This document shows, in pieces, positions 5,089-58,600 of a stretch of 64,000 bases of DNA (its first letter is position 1; the number at the start of each line of letters is the position of its first letter). A model generated the notes under the pieces. The model searched no databases and was not told the origin of the DNA. It worked only from the letters and a program-made list of their open reading frames with translations. Source of the stretch: Staphylococcus lutrae (lineage in GTDB: Bacteria; Bacillota; Bacilli; Staphylococcales; Staphylococcaceae); NCBI RefSeq assembly GCF_002101335.1, contig NZ_CP020773.1, positions 310,001-374,000 on the forward strand, given 5' to 3'. A program made the translations under genes and the position numbers.

Positions 5089-6468
5089 TTATTTAACGCC
5101 ATTCACGTTAATATCGATACTTTTAATTTGATGAATATCAATTTTATTAGCTGTCAATGGGGCATCAGATTTTAAACTAATAGTTTGTTTCTGACCATTT
5201 TTCCATGTTACTGTATATTGCGCTGTTTTTGCTGAATCAATTTGTGCATCAGTGACACGATACCCATGTTTTAATACACTCTTAACCTCGTTATTTAATT
5301 GGTGGAAGTTACTCGCACTATAGTTTGATAAATGAAGGTATGATTGTACGAATACAGTGTTACCGTTTAAAGTCACCGCATAAGGCACTGCATTAACAGC
5401 TGATTTCGCTTTACCTTTTTTTACGTTAACATCGATGCTTTTAATATCTTGAACATTAATAACGTTTGTTGGTAAAATTGCGCCTTGTTTTAAGCTGATT
5501 GTTTGTTTATGACCGTTTTTCCATGTCACAGTATATTCTGCAGTTTTTGATTTTTCAACTTGTGAAGCACTTAACTTGTATTCATTTTCTAATGCCGCTT
5601 TAATGTTTTGATTTAATTGATAAAAATTATTGGCATTACTATTTGATAATTTAAGGTAAGATTGTACAAAAGATGTCGCACCATCGATTGTCGTTGTGTA
5701 TGGTACTGATTTTACAACTTGTTTCTCTTGTTTGCTCATTACATCGATATCAATACGTTTAATATCAAAAATATTAATGAGTTGTGTTGGTAAAGCAGCA
5801 CCTTGTTTTAAACTAATTGTTTGTTTGTGACCGTTTTTCCATGTCACAGTGTAAGCCGCAGCTTTAGATTTTTCAATTTGTGATGCACCCAATTTATATT
5901 CTTTCTCTAATACACCTTTAATATTTTGGTTTAATTGATAAAAGTTATTCGCATTTTTTTCAGTTAACTTAAGATAAGATTGAACATAAGCTGTCGCACC
6001 ATCAATCGTAGCTGTGTAAGGAACTGAATTCTCTTTGTAGTTCGTCTTTTTATTTTCTACTTTAATATCTATATTTTTAATGTCATTCACATTAATTTTT
6101 TGAGTTGGTGTTACAGAACCCTGTTTTAAATTGATTGTTTGTTTCTTACCGTTTTTCCATGTCACTGTATATTGTGTTGTTTTTGATTTTTTTATTTGTA
6201 ATGAAGTCACATTGTACTCATGTTTTAAAGTTGTTTTAACTTTTTCATTTAACTGATAAAAGTTACTTGTGCTCGTTGTTGATAATTTAAGGTAAGATTG
6301 AACATATGATGTTGAACCGTCAATTGTTGTTGTATAAGACACTGTTTTAGACTGTACTTTATGTTGGTATTGTGATGCTGCATCTGCATTATTCCCCGCA
6401 GTTAATGATGCTGTTGATGTTAATATACCTAATGCTAAACCTGTGACCATAACTTTCTTCATATTCAT
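5089..6468 (-). CDS. secreted MAP-domain (Eap/Map-like) adhesin with four repeats
   Basis: A 459-residue exported protein. A signal peptide (positive MNMKK, hydrophobic core, AxA-type end near residue 31) precedes four homologous modules at about 44-137, 149-243, 255-349 and 361-457. Each module has the core YTTTIDG, VQSYLKL, NFYQLN, YTVTWKNG.KQTI and IDI.V. These are MAP repeats, a beta-grasp fold found in S. aureus Eap/Map, which binds host matrix proteins and blocks neutrophil serine proteases and complement. No LPXTG or lipobox is present, so it should be secreted and re-bind the surface. Modules 2 and 3 are the most alike; module 4 has diverged most. Start supported by AAAGGAG. Which host target it binds is not shown by the sequence. 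Confidence 0.9.
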   Translation of the reverse strand: MNMKKVMVTGLALGILTSTASLTAGNNADAASQYQHKVQSKTVSYTTTIDGSTSYVQSYLKLSTTSTSNFYQLNEKVKTTLKHEYNVTSLQIKKSKTTQYTVTWKNGKKQTINLKQGSVTPTQKINVNDIKNIDIKVENKKTNYKENSVPYTATIDGATAYVQSYLKLTEKNANNFYQLNQNIKGVLEKEYKLGASQIEKSKAAAYTVTWKNGHKQTISLKQGAALPTQLINIFDIKRIDIDVMSKQEKQVVKSVPYTTTIDGATSFVQSYLKLSNSNANNFYQLNQNIKAALENEYKLSASQVEKSKTAEYTVTWKNGHKQTISLKQGAILPTNVINVQDIKSIDVNVKKGKAKSAVNAVPYAVTLNGNTVFVQSYLHLSNYSASNFHQLNNEVKSVLKHGYRVTDAQIDSAKTAQYTVTWKNGQKQTISLKSDAPLTANKIDIHQIKSIDINVNGVK

Positions 6469-12600: not shown

Positions 12601-13889
12601 TAAAAGTATCAAATTTAAAAATCACTGAATGTTTAGGTATTCAAACCTTCAAGAACGTTCAATCATTGTTTTATAAAGGGGTTTTAACTTATCAACCTAA
12701 AGGTTGTGAGTGTTGTGGTATCAAGAATGAGCAACACACAGTTATTAAAAATGGCTTTCGCAGTACAAGAGTGTATATGGGGCTTATTCTTGAAAGGCCT
12801 AGTTATCTTGTGTTAAAAAAGCAACGCTTCTATTGTAAAGCTTGTGGTCAAACTTTTACGGCTAAAACACCATATATAGAACCGCGTTGTACAATTTCTA
12901 ATGACGTAAAACTAATGGTGACGAGAAAGCTCGCCACTGTCATATCTGAAAAAGATATAGCGAATAGTGTTTTAGTTTCACCTTCAACTGTTCATCGGTA
13001 TTTGAAAGACCTAGGGGAAGCAGTAAAAACACAACCTAGTGATATATTGCCCCAACATTTATCCTTTGATGAATTTAAGTCAACTAATGATGTCGACAGC
13101 TCTATGAGCTTTATATACTGTGATAGTATCACGCATGATATTATTGATATCTTGCCAGATCGACGTAAGTTCAAGTTGGAAGAATACTTTTTAAGATTCT
13201 CAAGAAAGCAGCGTGAAGGAGTTAAAAGTGTTTCTATTGATATGTATCCACCATACATGTCGCTAATTCAATCATTATTTCCCAATGCAGATATTATCTT
13301 AGACCGTTTTCATATTGTTCAAGCGGTTAACCGTGAAATCAATCACAGTCGCGTTAAAACAATGAATAGTTTTAAGACTAAAGAAAAACCCAAGTACAAT
13401 AAATTAAAACGGTATTGGAAGCTTTTATTAAAATCTCCAATTGAATTAGACAGAGTCCATTATCACTCGTTCAGACTTTTTAATACATGGCATAGTCAGT
13501 ATAGTTTAGTACAATTCTTGTTAACTTTTGATGAAGAATTCCAATTAACGTATGAAGCAGGACATCATATTCTAGAAACCCTAAGATCAAATAACATTGA
13601 ACAATTAGAGGAAGCATTACAACGTTCGAAGAGTTTAAATATTTCAAATGGACTCAAACGTGTTATTAACACACTCATAAAATATATACCTTATATTTCA
13701 AATACGATTCAAAATCCTCATTTGACCAATGGTCCAATTGAAGGTATTAACAATAAAATAAAGCTTATTAAGCGTGTCTCTTATGGTTATAGAAATTTTT
13801 ATAACTTTAGAAATAGGATTTTAATTATTTCAAGGTTATACGTAAGTGAATATAAAAAACGTACTAAGCAACAAAAAATTGCCACTTAG
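12601..13889 (+). pseudogene. ISL3-family transposase, 5' truncated
   Basis: Encodes all but the first ~12 residues of the transposase found intact at 22096-23421. It includes the zinc-ribbon-like cysteines (CECCGI and FYCKACGQTF), the helix-turn-helix region and the DDE_Tnp_ISL3 catalytic domain. The open frame runs upstream to a GTG at 12516 through the out-of-frame integrase stub, so a hybrid protein with an unrelated N-terminus might be made, though no ribosome site fits it. Without a left inverted repeat the copy cannot move by itself. Confidence 0.85.
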
Positions 13890-13927
13890 TACGATATTTC
13901 TTCACCAACCGACGTTGACAAAGAGCC
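12601..13927 (+). mobile_element. ISL3-family element, left end deleted
   Basis: From 12601 to the right terminal repeat (ending GAGCC at 13927) this copy matches 22133-23459 apart from one base difference noticed: ATT in place of GTT at a single codon (Ile for Val). The first ~161 bp of the element, including the left inverted repeat and the start of the transposase, are absent and replaced by the integrase stub. No target duplication is visible. Confidence 0.93.
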
Positions 13928-13930
13928 AAA

Positions 13931-21971: not shown

Positions 21972-23459
21972 GGTTCTATACTTTTAACGGTTGGTGAGTT
22001 TTTCACTGGCCGTTATTTTTGTTTTAAATACAAAAATAGCACAAATATCTCTATAATTGTAAGTGACAAAACCAACAAATTAAGGAGAGATATTCGTGCC
22101 TATGTATAATGATATATCAGAAATGATTGGAATAAAAGTATCAAATTTAAAAATCACTGAATGTTTAGGTATTCAAACCTTCAAGAACGTTCAATCATTG
22201 TTTTATAAAGGGGTTTTAACTTATCAACCTAAAGGTTGTGAGTGTTGTGGTATCAAGAATGAGCAACACACAGTTATTAAAAATGGCTTTCGCAGTACAA
22301 GAGTGTATATGGGGCTTATTCTTGAAAGGCCTAGTTATCTTGTGTTAAAAAAGCAACGCTTCTATTGTAAAGCTTGTGGTCAAACTTTTACGGCTAAAAC
22401 ACCATATATAGAACCGCGTTGTACAATTTCTAATGACGTAAAACTAATGGTGACGAGAAAGCTCGCCACTGTCATATCTGAAAAAGATATAGCGAATAGT
22501 GTTTTAGTTTCACCTTCAACTGTTCATCGGTATTTGAAAGACCTAGGGGAAGCAGTAAAAACACAACCTAGTGATATATTGCCCCAACATTTATCCTTTG
22601 ATGAATTTAAGTCAACTAATGATGTCGACAGCTCTATGAGCTTTATATACTGTGATAGTATCACGCATGATATTATTGATATCTTGCCAGATCGACGTAA
22701 GTTCAAGTTGGAAGAATACTTTTTAAGATTCTCAAGAAAGCAGCGTGAAGGAGTTAAAAGTGTTTCTATTGATATGTATCCACCATACATGTCGCTAATT
22801 CAATCATTATTTCCCAATGCAGATATTATCTTAGACCGTTTTCATATTGTTCAAGCGGTTAACCGTGAAATCAATCACAGTCGCGTTAAAACAATGAATA
22901 GTTTTAAGACTAAAGAAAAACCCAAGTACAATAAATTAAAACGGTATTGGAAGCTTTTATTAAAATCTCCAATTGAATTAGACAGAGTCCATTATCACTC
23001 GTTCAGACTTTTTAATACATGGCATAGTCAGTATAGTTTAGTACAATTCTTGTTAACTTTTGATGAAGAATTCCAATTAACGTATGAAGCAGGACATCAT
23101 ATTCTAGAAACCCTAAGATCAAATAACATTGAACAATTAGAGGAAGCATTACAACGTTCGAAGAGTTTAAATATTTCAAATGGACTCAAACGTGTTGTTA
23201 ACACACTCATAAAATATATACCTTATATTTCAAATACGATTCAAAATCCTCATTTGACCAATGGTCCAATTGAAGGTATTAACAATAAAATAAAGCTTAT
23301 TAAGCGTGTCTCTTATGGTTATAGAAATTTTTATAACTTTAGAAATAGGATTTTAATTATTTCAAGGTTATACGTAAGTGAATATAAAAAACGTACTAAG
23401 CAACAAAAAATTGCCACTTAGTACGATATTTCTTCACCAACCGACGTTGACAAAGAGCC
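21972..23459 (+). mobile_element. intact ISL3-family insertion sequence
   Basis: 1,488 bp with ~25-bp imperfect terminal inverted repeats (GGTTCTATACTTTTAACGGT on the left, GGCTCTTTGTCAACGTCGGT from the right) and the 8-bp target duplication ATTTATTT at 21964-21971 and 23460-23467, the size expected for ISL3. It carries one intact transposase gene. The preserved duplication suggests a recent single insertion. Confidence 0.95.
22096..23421 (+). CDS. ISL3-family transposase
   Basis: A 441-residue transposase. The N-terminal half has four cysteines in two pairs (CECC near residue 43, CKAC near residue 90) forming a zinc-ribbon-like DNA-binding unit, then a helix-turn-helix (about 125-155). The DDE_Tnp_ISL3 domain follows, with Asp in LSFDEFKS, Asp in VSIDMYPPY and the late Glu in NGPIEGINNKIK. 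I prefer the GTG at 22096, which has AAGGAG 8 bases upstream, over the ATG two codons later. It shares all but one noticed residue with the truncated copy at 12.6-13.9 kb. Confidence 0.93.
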   Translation: MPMYNDISEMIGIKVSNLKITECLGIQTFKNVQSLFYKGVLTYQPKGCECCGIKNEQHTVIKNGFRSTRVYMGLILERPSYLVLKKQRFYCKACGQTFTAKTPYIEPRCTISNDVKLMVTRKLATVISEKDIANSVLVSPSTVHRYLKDLGEAVKTQPSDILPQHLSFDEFKSTNDVDSSMSFIYCDSITHDIIDILPDRRKFKLEEYFLRFSRKQREGVKSVSIDMYPPYMSLIQSLFPNADIILDRFHIVQAVNREINHSRVKTMNSFKTKEKPKYNKLKRYWKLLLKSPIELDRVHYHSFRLFNTWHSQYSLVQFLLTFDEEFQLTYEAGHHILETLRSNNIEQLEEALQRSKSLNISNGLKRVVNTLIKYIPYISNTIQNPHLTNGPIEGINNKIKLIKRVSYGYRNFYNFRNRILIISRLYVSEYKKRTKQQKIAT

Positions 23460-23465
23460 ATTTAT

Positions 23466-53973: not shown

Positions 53974-54021
53974 ATAAAAAATGTAGGGAAATCAGCACTT
54001 CTCAAATACTGATTTCCTACA
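53974..54021 (-). terminator. terminator of the sialidase operon
   Basis: TGTAGG-AAATCAG type stem (53982-53995 with 54009-54021, one bulge), followed on the minus strand by a run of seven T. Confidence 0.85.
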
Positions 54022-54048: not shown

Positions 54049-55554
54049 TCAATATGACAATAAATCATTAATTTCATATACACGATATTTCATCGTATTT
54101 TTTAAATGTAATTGATTCCGAGACCAAGAATCATATTTTTCATATAATAATGCAACCTTATGATTTGGCGTCTCTGTTAATGCTGAATAGGAATAGCCTA
54201 CATTTTCACCATTCACTTGATGATGATGAATCCATTTCATATCAAGTGTTTCATGATCAACCCAACCTATCCAAATTTGACCATTATTACGGCCTTTGAT
54301 TGAGTTTGGCGTACTTAGAATAATGATATCCTTTCCATCTACCTTTTGCGAATACTTGATTACAGAAATCTGAGTCCCATATCTTGTTTGGTTCATCTGA
54401 CTTAAATATTGAATTTTATCCCATGTATTACCATTATCTAAACTCGTCATGTAGCCTATTTTACCTGTCGTTGTCCTTAAAAAGACCCTTATTACATTGG
54501 GTTGTAGTTCAATCATTTGTGCTTCAGCTGTTGCATTCGCAAATGGCAAAGTTGCTTTTTTGGAATGCCACGTCAGCCCATGATCATCACTATAAATAAA
54601 GATGAGCCCTTGATTCATATAAGAGGAAAAGATGAGCCGTCCATTTGATGTGGCTAGACCTTGTCCTGGGCTTAAATATGTCGCATTGTGATTCAAACCT
54701 AAAAGTGGTGGTAAAATTGTCGGATGCTCCCAATGTTGTCCGTCCATACTTGTTGTATACGATAAGTAGTTTGTAGGCGTCACTTTAAAGAGCGCATCTT
54801 TATAAAAAATATTCATCTTAACTTTTTTATTTTTATGATACTCTTGTAGCTGTGTGCCGTTAAACTTTACACTATACTGCGATACGTACAAATATTCATT
54901 ATTTTTAAGCAAATGATAATCTTGATCAACTTTATATTCCGTTGCAGTCTGTTTTTTATCATCAAAAATCAAACCATCTTCTCTAATTGAATAGTTGTAA
55001 TCTCTTTCATTGTTTAATCTTAATTTCAAATAATATTTTCCATTTATTTGCTTGAATCCTGAATCATTTTTTAGCGCATTATTGTTCCCTACACCAGCCG
55101 GCATCGTATCAGCCATTAAAAATATTTTGTGCGTAACTTTATCTTGTAAAATTGCTGAATCAATAAACGAAGCACTGCCTTGGATTTGCTTATTTTTGCC
55201 AATATTATCTCTGGGCCAATCAATTAATTGATTGTCGTAGTCATGAAATTGTAATGCGAAAGTAGGCGTTGACCATGTATTTCCATCTTCACTAATAGAA
55301 GTGGCAATGTTAATTTTACTTTTTGCATCATGCGTTCCACCGTATCGCGCATCAGCACTTGCAATTAACTTACCATTATCTAAAGTATACAATACTGGAA
55401 TTCTAAAGTAGTTTGCATTTGTAGCATCACCTGATTTGAAAATGGCTTGGTCTCCAACCGCAGTGTTAGCAGCTTTCACATTTTGATTCGAAAGTAATGA
55501 TAACATCACAGCAAGCAAAAGTATGAGGACAACATTGAAAGTCCTTTTCATCAT
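54049..55554 (-). CDS. secreted sialidase (GH33 neuraminidase)
   Basis: A 501-residue exo-sialidase cleaving terminal sialic acids from host glycans. Signal peptide about 1-28 (KRTFNVVLILLLAVMLSLL, ending NVKAA). The six-bladed propeller is marked by the FRIP motif at 50-53 (R51 of the Arg triad), candidate acid/base D76, and Asp boxes at 88-94 (SEDGNTW), 269-275 (SMDGQHW), 322-329 (SDDHGLTW) and 371-378 (SLDNGNTW). Glu349 and R360 and the Tyr pair 454/456 fit the rest of the site. An insertion at about 155-260 resembles that of streptococcal NanB-type enzymes. No carbohydrate-binding module and no LPXTG. ATG overlaps the transporter stop (ATGA). Whether hydrolytic or intramolecular trans-sialidase is not decidable here. 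Confidence 0.9.
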   Translation of the reverse strand: MMKRTFNVVLILLLAVMLSLLSNQNVKAANTAVGDQAIFKSGDATNANYFRIPVLYTLDNGKLIASADARYGGTHDAKSKINIATSISEDGNTWSTPTFALQFHDYDNQLIDWPRDNIGKNKQIQGSASFIDSAILQDKVTHKIFLMADTMPAGVGNNNALKNDSGFKQINGKYYLKLRLNNERDYNYSIREDGLIFDDKKQTATEYKVDQDYHLLKNNEYLYVSQYSVKFNGTQLQEYHKNKKVKMNIFYKDALFKVTPTNYLSYTTSMDGQHWEHPTILPPLLGLNHNATYLSPGQGLATSNGRLIFSSYMNQGLIFIYSDDHGLTWHSKKATLPFANATAEAQMIELQPNVIRVFLRTTTGKIGYMTSLDNGNTWDKIQYLSQMNQTRYGTQISVIKYSQKVDGKDIIILSTPNSIKGRNNGQIWIGWVDHETLDMKWIHHHQVNGENVGYSYSALTETPNHKVALLYEKYDSWSRNQLHLKNTMKYRVYEINDLLSY

Positions 55555-56999
55555 GCATTAACCTGTAACCTTTCACGTTCTTCTCTCAATTCTCTTGCAA
55601 TTCTATCCGTTGTCTTTTTATTCATTGGGTAACCAAAGATTAATATCAATGCTGCTACTAAGAATAATACTGCCGGTAAAAGGTTAGAAATCATATAAAT
55701 TCTCTCTTGAACCGCTGCAGATTGAAGTATACCTCCAGTTGTAGAGGATTGGTAGCCAATTAATGCAAGCATAAATCCTCCGATCCCTCCTGAAAATGCT
55801 TGAGCAACTTTTCTTGCAAAAGAGTTTAAACCGTAAACTGTACCATCTTCACGTAATCCAGTGTTATATTGGTGTGCGTCAATAACATCTGTGATTAAAG
55901 CCCATACGATAACGTTAAACACTGAATAGCCAATTGTTGCGAAAAACATTAATGTGACATATACCCATGCATTGGTTGTATGCAAGAAAAATAGTAGAAA
56001 AAACATAATTGATGAGAATGGCAGAGCAACCATTGTTACTTCTTTTTTACCGAATTTTCTTACAAAATAGATTGTAGGTGCTGCTACCAAGACTACAGTC
56101 CCCCAGTTAAATAACATTGCAATAGACATCGCTTTTGGATTGTGGAAATAATCATTAAATAAATATGTTGTCGTTGTACCGTATAAAATTTGTGTTAATA
56201 CAACAAAGAAGTCCACAATAATTAATATCAAAATCGCTCTGTCAGTAAATAGTCCTTTTAATAGTTTACCCACTGTCACTTTTTCTTTTTTCTTAATTTG
56301 TACACGTTCAACTAACATGTGATGAATAATATTGTATATAATAAACGCAATCGAACAACTGATGATTGCGATAATAAAGAAACGCATACCAGAGATGGTC
56401 TTTTCACCGTGTGCATTTGTTGTGTAGATAAACATAGGAATTAAAAATCCTGTTGAAGACATCCCAATTGCCGCACCCACACTTCTGAATGTTGATAATG
56501 CTGCACGATCATCTGGATGGTCACTGATTGCCGCTGCCATTGAACCGTATGGAATATTGATTGCAGACAATACTACACCAAAAATTAAATAAGTGACAAA
56601 AATGTATGCAATTTTAGCACCGTCATTCCAATCGTGAACTAAAGGCAAAAAGAGCAATAATGAAATCATACAAAACGGATATTTCATACGTCTAATCCAC
56701 GGTTTAAATCGTCCTTCAGGCGTTAATTCCGCTACATCAATCATACGTCCTACTGATACATCGGCAAATGCATCAATAATTCTTGAAATTAAAAATAAAA
56801 TCCCTACAATACTTCCTGCAATACCTAATACGTTAGTGTAATAAATCATTAAAAAGCTGTTCACAAGGCCGAGAATCGCATCATTACCAATGTCACCTAA
56901 CATATAACCAATTTTATCTTTCATTCCAAATGGCTTTGCATTCACTTTGATTGCAGTCATATTTTGACTGTTTGAAACTGCACCTTCTTTTTGTTTCAT
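55551..56999 (-). CDS. GPH-family sugar:cation symporter, probable sialic acid (derivative) transporter
   Basis: A 482-residue MFS-fold transporter of the glycoside-pentoside-hexuronide (MelB) family with twelve predicted helices. GPH landmarks: the N-terminal KDKIGYMLGDIGNDAILGLV, the Asp-rich helix FLISRIIDAFADVSVGRMID, and the loop GRFKPWIRRMKYPF. Substrate is inferred only from context: it is translationally coupled to a sialidase and preceded by a NanOx-like oxidoreductase. Sialic acid, 2,7-anhydro-sialic acid or a sialylated product are candidates. A 37-base gap separates it from the oxidoreductase gene. Confidence 0.85.
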   Translation of the reverse strand: MKQKEGAVSNSQNMTAIKVNAKPFGMKDKIGYMLGDIGNDAILGLVNSFLMIYYTNVLGIAGSIVGILFLISRIIDAFADVSVGRMIDVAELTPEGRFKPWIRRMKYPFCMISLLLFLPLVHDWNDGAKIAYIFVTYLIFGVVLSAINIPYGSMAAAISDHPDDRAALSTFRSVGAAIGMSSTGFLIPMFIYTTNAHGEKTISGMRFFIIAIISCSIAFIIYNIIHHMLVERVQIKKKEKVTVGKLLKGLFTDRAILILIIVDFFVVLTQILYGTTTTYLFNDYFHNPKAMSIAMLFNWGTVVLVAAPTIYFVRKFGKKEVTMVALPFSSIMFFLLFFLHTTNAWVYVTLMFFATIGYSVFNVIVWALITDVIDAHQYNTGLREDGTVYGLNSFARKVAQAFSGGIGGFMLALIGYQSSTTGGILQSAAVQERIYMISNLLPAVLFLVAALILIFGYPMNKKTTDRIARELREERERLQVNA

Positions 57000-57036
57000 A
57001 TCTTACATCACCTTTTTAATGTATTCCTCTTTGATG

Positions 57037-58158
57037 CTATTTGGCGTCAATAATTTCACTTAAAGCAACTTTTCTATCCTCTACGTTGGATAGTGTTGCC
57101 GCATCTGCTGTGGCAATCGCTTCCTCTGCTGCCGTACCATCTAAAAGTTTCAAATATTCTTCCGATACCTCTTTACCATGCAGCACTTCGTTAAAAAACT
57201 TCATTTCTTTTTGAATTAAAGTATTTAACCATAAAGGCGTCCGCTTACCAGGATGACCGTATTGAATAGCCCCATCCATTTCTGTACCATGATAAATTTG
57301 TGTACGATTATCGTCTTCTTCTTGTGTTTCATGAATTAAGAAATGTGTTTCTTTTCCATCTACTCTTAAAGTTCCACCCGTATCATACATATTTAACATG
57401 ATGGCACCTTTAGTTCCTTCGATTAGGACATAGTGTTCACCCCATCTAAAAGCTGAACCCCATTCAAGATGTGCATAGCGATTGCCTGAAAATTCTAAAT
57501 TCATCATAATAAAATCATCTTCGTCACCAAACGCTTCTCCTTGGTGTGCAATGTCAGAGGCCGTCATCGTTACTTTTTCAGGTAATCCTCCCATGATGAA
57601 CTGAACACAATCTAATTCATGAATATGATGATATAAGTGCCCCCCTGATTGATCTCTCATTTTCTTCCAAGAAATACTAGGTTGTGCCTCTTCCCAACCA
57701 TTCCGAGTTGATTTTACAAACAAGATGTCCCCAATCACACCTTTTTGAATCAATTCTTTTGCATGATGTACCCCATTGAAAAAGTTCATGATATGACCCG
57801 CCATAAATGTTACGCCTGCTTCTTTACAAGCCGTTACCATATCCACACAATCTTGATAATTTAATGCAATTGGCTTCTCACAAAAAACATGTTTTTTATT
57901 TTTGGCTGCTTCAATCACAGGTTCTTTGTGTAAATGATTAGGTGTTGCCACAATCACACAATCTACCGCTTCATCCGTAACTAATTCTTGTAAGTTCTTT
58001 GCGCATTTACACCCTAATTCTGTAGCAATTGTTTCTCCATTTTCTGGATCATAGACCGATACAATTTTAGCGCCTTTGTTTTCTTGCATTGCTCTGGCAA
58101 GTTCTGCACCAAAATATCCTGTACCCACTACCCCATAACCTATCGTTTTTTCTAACAT
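57037..58158 (-). CDS. Gfo/Idh/MocA oxidoreductase, YjhC/NanOx-like
   Basis: A 373-residue NAD(P)-dependent oxidoreductase. Rossmann loop GVVGTGYFGAELA (9-21), the EKP motif at 94-96 with catalytic K95, and the histidine-rich active-site helix GGHLYHHIHELD (172-183). From memory it follows E. coli YjhC and Ruminococcus gnavus NanOx closely over its length, including SGGHLYHHIHELDC and HETQEEDD. These enzymes convert 2,7-anhydro-Neu5Ac to Neu5Ac through redox steps. First gene of the three-gene operon. Other Gfo/Idh activities on sugars remain possible until compared directly. Confidence 0.8.
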   Translation of the reverse strand: MLEKTIGYGVVGTGYFGAELARAMQENKGAKIVSVYDPENGETIATELGCKCAKNLQELVTDEAVDCVIVATPNHLHKEPVIEAAKNKKHVFCEKPIALNYQDCVDMVTACKEAGVTFMAGHIMNFFNGVHHAKELIQKGVIGDILFVKSTRNGWEEAQPSISWKKMRDQSGGHLYHHIHELDCVQFIMGGLPEKVTMTASDIAHQGEAFGDEDDFIMMNLEFSGNRYAHLEWGSAFRWGEHYVLIEGTKGAIMLNMYDTGGTLRVDGKETHFLIHETQEEDDNRTQIYHGTEMDGAIQYGHPGKRTPLWLNTLIQKEMKFFNEVLHGKEVSEEYLKLLDGTAAEEAIATADAATLSNVEDRKVALSEIIDAK

Positions 58159-58182: not shown

Positions 58183-58226
58183 TGTAAGCCTTTTCAAATT
58201 ATATATTGAAATTTATTTAATTACAA
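58183..58226 (-). promoter_or_regulatory. sialidase operon promoter with cre-like site
   Basis: Minus strand TTGTAA (58226-58221), 17-base spacer, TATAAT (58203-58198). TGAAAAGGCTTACA (58196-58183) overlaps the expected transcription start and matches the CcpA site consensus TGWAANCGNTNWCA except for one central base. This points to repression when glucose is present. Confidence 0.65.
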
Positions 58227-58240
58227 TGACATTAAATTAT

Positions 58241-58600
58241 GAAACAGATTTCAAAGTGCATATTATTTCTGAATTTTTATAGAAATCAAGGTAATTCATA
58301 CCTACTAATCATGGATATTCTCTTATATTTGTTACAATATATGGGTTTAAAGTCATATGTATCAGCTATTTTTTCTAAATAATCTGAATATTCACGTTAT
58401 TATAGTATCCTTTTGAAAATTTATTTCACTATAGTCTCGCAATTTATTTTTCATATTTCAGCATGATTTAACATTCTAAGACAGTGGCTGATTGCCCTGC
58501 AAACCTCCAATTACTTTGGTATATTAATGTAGTGATGATGTCATACCCTTTCAAAATCGTAAATCTTTATTATTCCTTGTATCAGAGAAAATCGGGTGAA
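58241..58600. other. intergenic region upstream of the sialidase operon, no gene seen
   Basis: AT-rich, with no ORF carrying a ribosome site. In particular no RpiR- or GntR-type regulator gene accompanies the operon here. Confidence 0.5.

Follow-up and report, generated by a model that had tools for sequence, protein, structure and literature searches.

A secreted sialidase encoded beside a transporter and an oxidoreductase raises the question of which form of sialic acid such a locus handles. One such locus of Staphylococcus lutrae lies in the window analyzed here, a stretch of 64 kb (positions 310001-374000 of a 2,533,115-bp genome in one contig) with a G+C content of 37.2%. Its three genes, at window positions 54049-58158 on the minus strand, very likely form a channel for 2,7-anhydro-N-acetylneuraminic acid (2,7-anhydro-Neu5Ac), judging from sequence comparison. 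In the order of transcription, they are:

57037..58158, minus strand: nanOx, open reading frame (ORF) of 373 aa, placed among the NanOx/NanY anhydro-sialic acid oxidoreductases by PDB comparison, residues and tree
55551..56999, minus strand: GPH (glycoside-pentoside-hexuronide):cation symporter, ORF of 482 aa, very probably NanG (ST8) for 2,7-anhydro-Neu5Ac, from family profiles and the presence of D40
54049..55554, minus strand: predicted secreted GH33 intramolecular trans-sialidase, ORF of 501 aa, with NanB/RgNanH-type residues and without CBM40

The operon is real. A gap of 37 bases (57000-57036) separates the oxidoreductase and GPH genes, and the GPH stop and sialidase start share four bases (ATGA); the coordinates, strand, gap and overlap given in the original prediction, made from the letters of the window, all hold. 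The same gene order is found in S. pseudintermedius (G050), in another Staphylococcus genome (G056), where stop codons lie inside two of the three genes, and on plasmids of Ligilactobacillus salivarius, and because of this recurrence it is not due to chance.

The oxidoreductase

The oxidoreductase contains the N- and C-terminal GFO_IDH_MocA domains of Pfam, and its top NCBIfam match is iolG (126 bits, far under the cut-off of 355). Such generic matches would suit an ordinary inositol or sugar dehydrogenase that lies beside the sialidase by chance. In a comparison with PDB entries, however, it scores 590 bits against RgNanOx (6z3b/6z3c) and 548 bits against YjhC (6o15), whereas the next kind of entry reaches 83 bits. 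Mutants of RgNanOx at K93, K163, H175, H176 and H178 are described as inactive in the available part of that study (PMC7535918). The equivalent residues, shifted by two, are all conserved here as K95, K165, H177, H178 and H180, including both lysines and the HHIH motif. The EKP (K95) and GGHLYHHIHELD (from residue 172) motifs, named beforehand as marks of this group, are both present.

Phylogeny agrees with these scores. In a tree of 47 rows, which includes long outgroup branches and no row for RgNanOx, the NanOx group (support 93/90) is separate from generic Gfo/Idh paralogues, and the window protein lies within it, away from paralogues in its own genome that are 25% identical to it. The group includes an unannotated E. 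coli ORF (L127) that was taken as NanY from its score (547.9 bits, compared with 547.6 for the YjhC entry). The window protein joins NanOx of S. pseudintermedius (100/99) and, weakly, that of L. salivarius (99/18). Given the bit-score gap and the tree, the dehydrogenase explanation was rejected, and its probability is close to nil; the protein groups with NanOx/YjhC, as had been proposed. Membership in NanOx/NanY is supported, and conversion of 2,7-anhydro-Neu5Ac to Neu5Ac is predicted.

The sialidase

The sialidase matches BNR_2/BNR_3 in Pfam and begins with a putative signal peptide (recognized by eye, roughly residues 1-28). Its catalytic set is kept, with the arginine triad R51, R360 and R422, the acid D76, E344 and the nucleophile Y456, and an inserted (I) domain interrupts the catalytic domain as in NanB. 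When mapped through the NanB alignment, T342 corresponds to RgNanH T557, the threonine under the glycerol group, and Y392 and W477 to the stacking residues Y607 and W698. The signature of A77, the loop GNNN (156-159) and T342 is that of the 2,7-anhydro makers NanB and RgNanH. A check of the active site, suggested with the original prediction, has thus turned up residues of an intramolecular trans-sialidase. Assignment to this kind is supported, with release of 2,7-anhydro-Neu5Ac as the predicted activity; a hydrolytic sialidase was considered and rejected.

Another product could be 2-deoxy-2,3-didehydro-Neu5Ac (Neu5Ac2en), made as by NanC and then processed by this NanOx. The phenylalanine after the acid aspartate, the phenylalanine in the 396 loop and the serine two residues before the glutamate of NanC, positions mapped by residue number and not from an alignment row of NanC itself, are A77, GNNN and T342 here. 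Moreover, growth on Neu5Ac2en through S. lutrae NanG was not obtained, according to the available text (PMC10955332). As all three signature residues differ, a NanC-type product was rejected and is considered highly improbable.

An N-terminal CBM40 has been reported for NanB, NanC and RgNanH; it is common and not catalytic. This domain (PF02973) is missing from the sialidases of the window and S. pseudintermedius and from the open frame of G056, and it is present in all four other staphylococcal sialidases scanned. Sialidases are also bacterial virulence factors (PMC4646021), and this one might mainly unmask host surfaces, with sugar uptake secondary. Against such a role, the gene shares its operon with an importer and an oxidoreductase behind a NanR-like palindrome, and the enzyme lacks CBM40, which binds sialosides in NanC; we regard a primary role in virulence as unlikely. 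As a compact natural catalytic domain, the CBM40-free enzyme could serve to make 2,7-anhydro-Neu5Ac.

Two other staphylococcal sialidases (L072:8498-10651 and L074:8211-10310) carry CBM40, F77, S342 and the loop SSAG, and have no linked importer or NanOx within the fetched stretch.

The transporter and earlier work

The GPH protein matches MFS_2 and TIGR00792 (GPH; 283.9 bits against a cut-off of 231.35), has aspartate at residue 40, the D40 of S. lutrae NanG, and is encoded in linkage with NanOx, as NanG/ST8 requires. It is very probably the published NanG of S. lutrae DSM 10244, B5P37_01885, with which it has D40 and the NanOx linkage in common (Wu et al. 2024; PMC10955332, available in part). 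According to the same partial text, transport-null E. coli with NanG grows on 2,7-anhydro-Neu5Ac but fails to grow on Neu5Ac or Neu5Ac2en, the exchange D40A cripples NanG, and S. lutrae SiaX allows growth on Neu5Ac and Neu5Ac2en but not on 2,7-anhydro-Neu5Ac.

A GPH partner had been put forward as a distinct version of such systems. This novelty is not supported because a GPH gene linked to NanOx in Lactobacillus salivarius was reported in 2020 (Bell et al. 2020; PMC7535918) and import by S. lutrae NanG in 2024 (PMC10955332), both sources being available in part; ST8/NanG is also listed in the available part of a 2023 review (PMC10017367). The core system is already known, and the window mainly places it in the genome. 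The account of Wu et al. 2024 names, in its available text, neither a sialidase gene next to nanG nor a regulatory site; a sialidase gene and candidate regulatory sites are found here.

Among known systems, the L. salivarius nanOx-GPH locus (Bell et al. 2020; PMC7535918) has the same three genes in the same order, at about 73% DNA identity. Unlike the window operon, its genes lie on plasmids near nanA, nanE and yhcH, and its sialidase, which is split in both of the records examined, carries CBM40. The NanH, SAT2/SatXYZ and NanOx system of Ruminococcus gnavus is like that of the window in sialidase kind, NanOx chemistry and imported 2,7-anhydro-Neu5Ac (literature), but it relies on an ATP-binding cassette (ABC) transporter instead of GPH, and its NanH has CBM40.

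The proposed pathway

In the proposed mechanism, the sialidase would release sialic acid from host sugars as an unusual, ring-closed compound. NanG would import this 2,7-anhydro-Neu5Ac and not free Neu5Ac, as measured for S. lutrae NanG in E. coli (PMC10955332, available in part), and NanOx, with NAD+ as cofactor, would convert it to Neu5Ac, as has been shown for RgNanOx and EcNanY. From there, Neu5Ac would feed into a NanA/NanE/NagB route whose genes lie at two other loci. Through a NanR-like palindrome and a CRE-like (catabolite responsive element) site, the operon would be induced by sialic acid and repressed by glucose, jointly with a second NanOx cluster. The likely benefit would be a private good, as organisms that import Neu5Ac alone could not use the released form.

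Catabolic nan genes had been expected elsewhere in the genome, which was borne out for all but nanK. A nanA-like gene lies at 2147097 (L052; 218.7 bits, under the cut-off of 281). From about 1587.6 kb, nanE (298 bits; cut-off 189) and nagB (252 bits; TIGR00502 cut-off 236.9) stand side by side, adjoining a phosphotransferase system (PTS) gene and one with weak similarity to nanR. No nanK was found: the two ROK proteins are a glucokinase and one that could not be assigned.

The second NanOx cluster

A second NanOx (NanOx2), 63% identical to the first, is encoded outside the window at 2150163-2151260 of the genome. Its cluster reads RpiR regulator, nanA-like gene, sodium:solute symporter (SSS) gene, yhcH and nanOx, and matches the published S. 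lutrae siaX (B5P37_10005) and nanOx (B5P37_10015), which have one gene between them in the available text (PMC10955332). NanOx2 falls in a different clade (100/100, 13 rows) from the window NanOx, so the two genes are not a recent duplication. For 11 of these 13 rows a SiaX gene is present in the fetched stretch; of the other two, L021 is truncated by the end of its contig, and no SiaX gene is present in the stretch of L014, a metagenome-assembled genome (MAG) of Bifidobacteriaceae.

In two other staphylococci (G056 and G067), the SiaX cluster includes a sialidase of 701 or 682 aa with NanC-like residues, located between yhcH and nanOx. The corresponding gap of 109 bases in S. lutrae (yhcH-nanOx2) retains 20 codons (L052:12062-12121) that match the C-terminal end of the G067 sialidase at 55% identity, with a local score of 63 compared with 42 for the best of 300 shuffles. 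Because of this C-terminal fossil, a NanC-type sialidase was very probably once present in the second cluster. Decay in the reverse direction is seen in G056, where the SiaX cluster keeps its sialidase and the NanG trio has one internal stop each in nanOx and sialidase; nanR of this genome is split over two frames.

A further NanOx, 53% identical to that of the window, is encoded in G067 (L145:6494-11917) beside a complete ABC sugar importer consisting of a binding protein, two permeases and an ATPase, with no sialidase ORF in the stretch.

Candidate regulatory sites

Three such sites precede nanOx:

58240..58253, no strand: NanR-like palindrome TGAAA-N4-TTTCA, upstream of the promoter, from a motif scan
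58198..58226, minus strand: sigma-70-like promoter TTGTAA-17-TATAAT, 10/12, ahead of the first gene
58183..58196, no strand: CRE-like site immediately behind the -10 box, with a single mismatch whichever strand is read, from a CRE scan

The palindrome resembles the pneumococcal NanR site TCTGAAACTACTTTCAAA, as given in the available parts of two reports (PMC12713135, PMC4509764). About 1.9 palindromes are expected per 64 kb on both strands, and the window has one. TGAAA-N4-TTTC(A/T) lies ahead of nanOx in all three staphylococcal trios (window, S. pseudintermedius and G056), and the palindrome lies ahead of nanR in six of six staphylococcal SiaX loci (L052, L071, L073, L142, L143, L144); these nine cases are two orthologous groups and not independent finds. 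The CRE scan returned 15 matches where 7 were expected, a number reached by 3 of 100 shuffles. The promoter is one of three 10/12 sites in the scanned region and the sole one on the minus strand, while the total of 28 promoter-like sites, compared with 26.1 in shuffles, is not above chance.

Pairing of sialidase type with importer

SiaX-sialidase-NanOx clusters of streptococci and staphylococci resemble the window operon in keeping sialidase, importer and NanOx together, and differ from it in their NanC-like active-site residues and SSS importer. To compare such loci, 37 sialidase rows were classified after removal of fragments shorter than 300 aa (UCC118) and of repeated loci, L013 among them, and six identical-protein pairs were collapsed after classification. 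The loci had been collected because they resemble the NanOx or sialidase of the window, and the sample is therefore biased. All ten distinct SiaX-linked sialidases (eight streptococcal, two staphylococcal) are NanC-like, with F77, SFR(E/D) and S342. Of 14 SAT2-linked sialidases, 11 of them streptococcal, 13 are NanB-like with S77, GNxN and T342; the exception, L019, has A77, GFSN and F342 and runs off a MAG contig. SAT2 linkage here means an ABC binding protein and two permeases like those of L109, where the families were checked. The four NanG-linked sialidases, two of them in broken genes, all have A or S77, GNxN and T342. F77 and S342 are also found in three distinct sialidases (L021/L118, L072 and L074) whose fetched stretches hold no linked transporter. 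Matches at E 1e-100 occur in 20 of 284 Streptococcus genomes.

The F77/S342 sialidases form a single clade of the sialidase tree (100/100), and the NanG-linked ones of staphylococci form a different clade (99/100). The pairing is thus between clades, and the counts are not independent events; importer specificities, in turn, come from a few proteins measured in partly available sources (S. lutrae NanG and SiaX, C. butyricum SiaX and R. gnavus SAT2). The pairing of importer with sialidase type looks like a wider rule. We lean, without great confidence, toward private matched channels, in which the sialidase type would be co-inherited with its importer (NanG/SAT2 or SiaX), each with its own NanOx, and staphylococci would once have held both under one NanR-like regulator and then lost one or the other.

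Several observations weigh against this scenario. Reciprocal loss is not clean. G021, G036 and G018 have neither a sialidase at the SiaX cluster nor a close NanG; a weak match of 45 residues in L143 falls elsewhere in its stretch. In S. pseudintermedius, the NanG trio is present and no second NanOx was found at E 1e-80. Regarding shared regulation, the palindrome is absent from the nanE locus (L068) and from the ABC-linked NanOx locus (L145), a strict palindrome precedes nanR in only one of eight distinct streptococcal SiaX loci scanned (L126), and none precedes L. salivarius nanOx.

If true, the matching rule would make both the importer and the form of sialic acid released predictable from sequence, would explain two NanOx genes of different clades in one genome, and would provide an easy way to test the private-good idea on mucosal surfaces. 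Severi et al. 2021 reportedly identified the ST families, according to the citations of Wu et al. The rule was not found in the literature searched; Severi et al. 2021, outside that search, may show S. lutrae clusters with sialidases. Nor did the searched literature yield a NanC-type fossil or reverse decay, the shared NanR-like palindrome, or CBM40-free NanG-linked staphylococcal sialidases.

Distribution and descent

Across 83 Staphylococcus genomes, a NanG more than 50% identical to that of the window occurs in four (100, 95, 90 and 52%), a sialidase at least 74% identical in three, and a NanOx match at E 1e-80 in seven. Among 398 genomes sampled evenly from the class, matches at E 1e-100 were found only in the genome itself and in S. 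pseudintermedius. Among 11 plasmid records, all three genes occur in L. salivarius only (five records, three of them with at least 80% of the query).

The 52% relative (L055:10013-11404, in G030) is intact and lies between two Gfo/Idh-like genes (by eye), in another sugar locus without relatives of the sialidase or NanOx; its substrate may be another sugar. A broken gene was considered and rejected, its TAG being its own end stop.

In the window and in G056, the trio is flanked by gatD and an FUSC-type gene (the flanking-gene names gatD, murT, map, FUSC and fabI were read by eye). The gatD site is empty in five of the six other genomes fetched (S. pseudintermedius, G021, G018, G036 and G035), which do not include G029; in G067 the FUSC gene lies outside the stretch. 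The S. pseudintermedius trio sits elsewhere, after fabI. Protein identities to S. pseudintermedius and G056, respectively, are 90 and 86% for gatD, 95 and 90% for NanG (95 and 89% by tblastn), 89 and 85% for NanOx, and 75 and 74% for the sialidase. Recent horizontal import was rejected because the trio identities, alongside those of gatD, fit vertical descent, with relocation in S. pseudintermedius.

Other features of the window

An Rfam search of 5201 bases gave no matches. A terminator-like hairpin follows the sialidase gene:

53987..54017, minus strand: hairpin of 14 pairs, 4 of them G-C, with a T tail

It is the one terminator-like site found, where shuffles gave 2.3, a count not above chance. 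Elsewhere, two copies of 1328 bases (12601-13928 and 22133-23460), 99.9% identical and carrying a transposase-like gene (ISL3-like by eye), bracket a block of 26 tRNA genes and perhaps also rRNA genes. Diverged tandem repeats, about 70% identical and spaced by about 320 bases, lie at 5102-6344.

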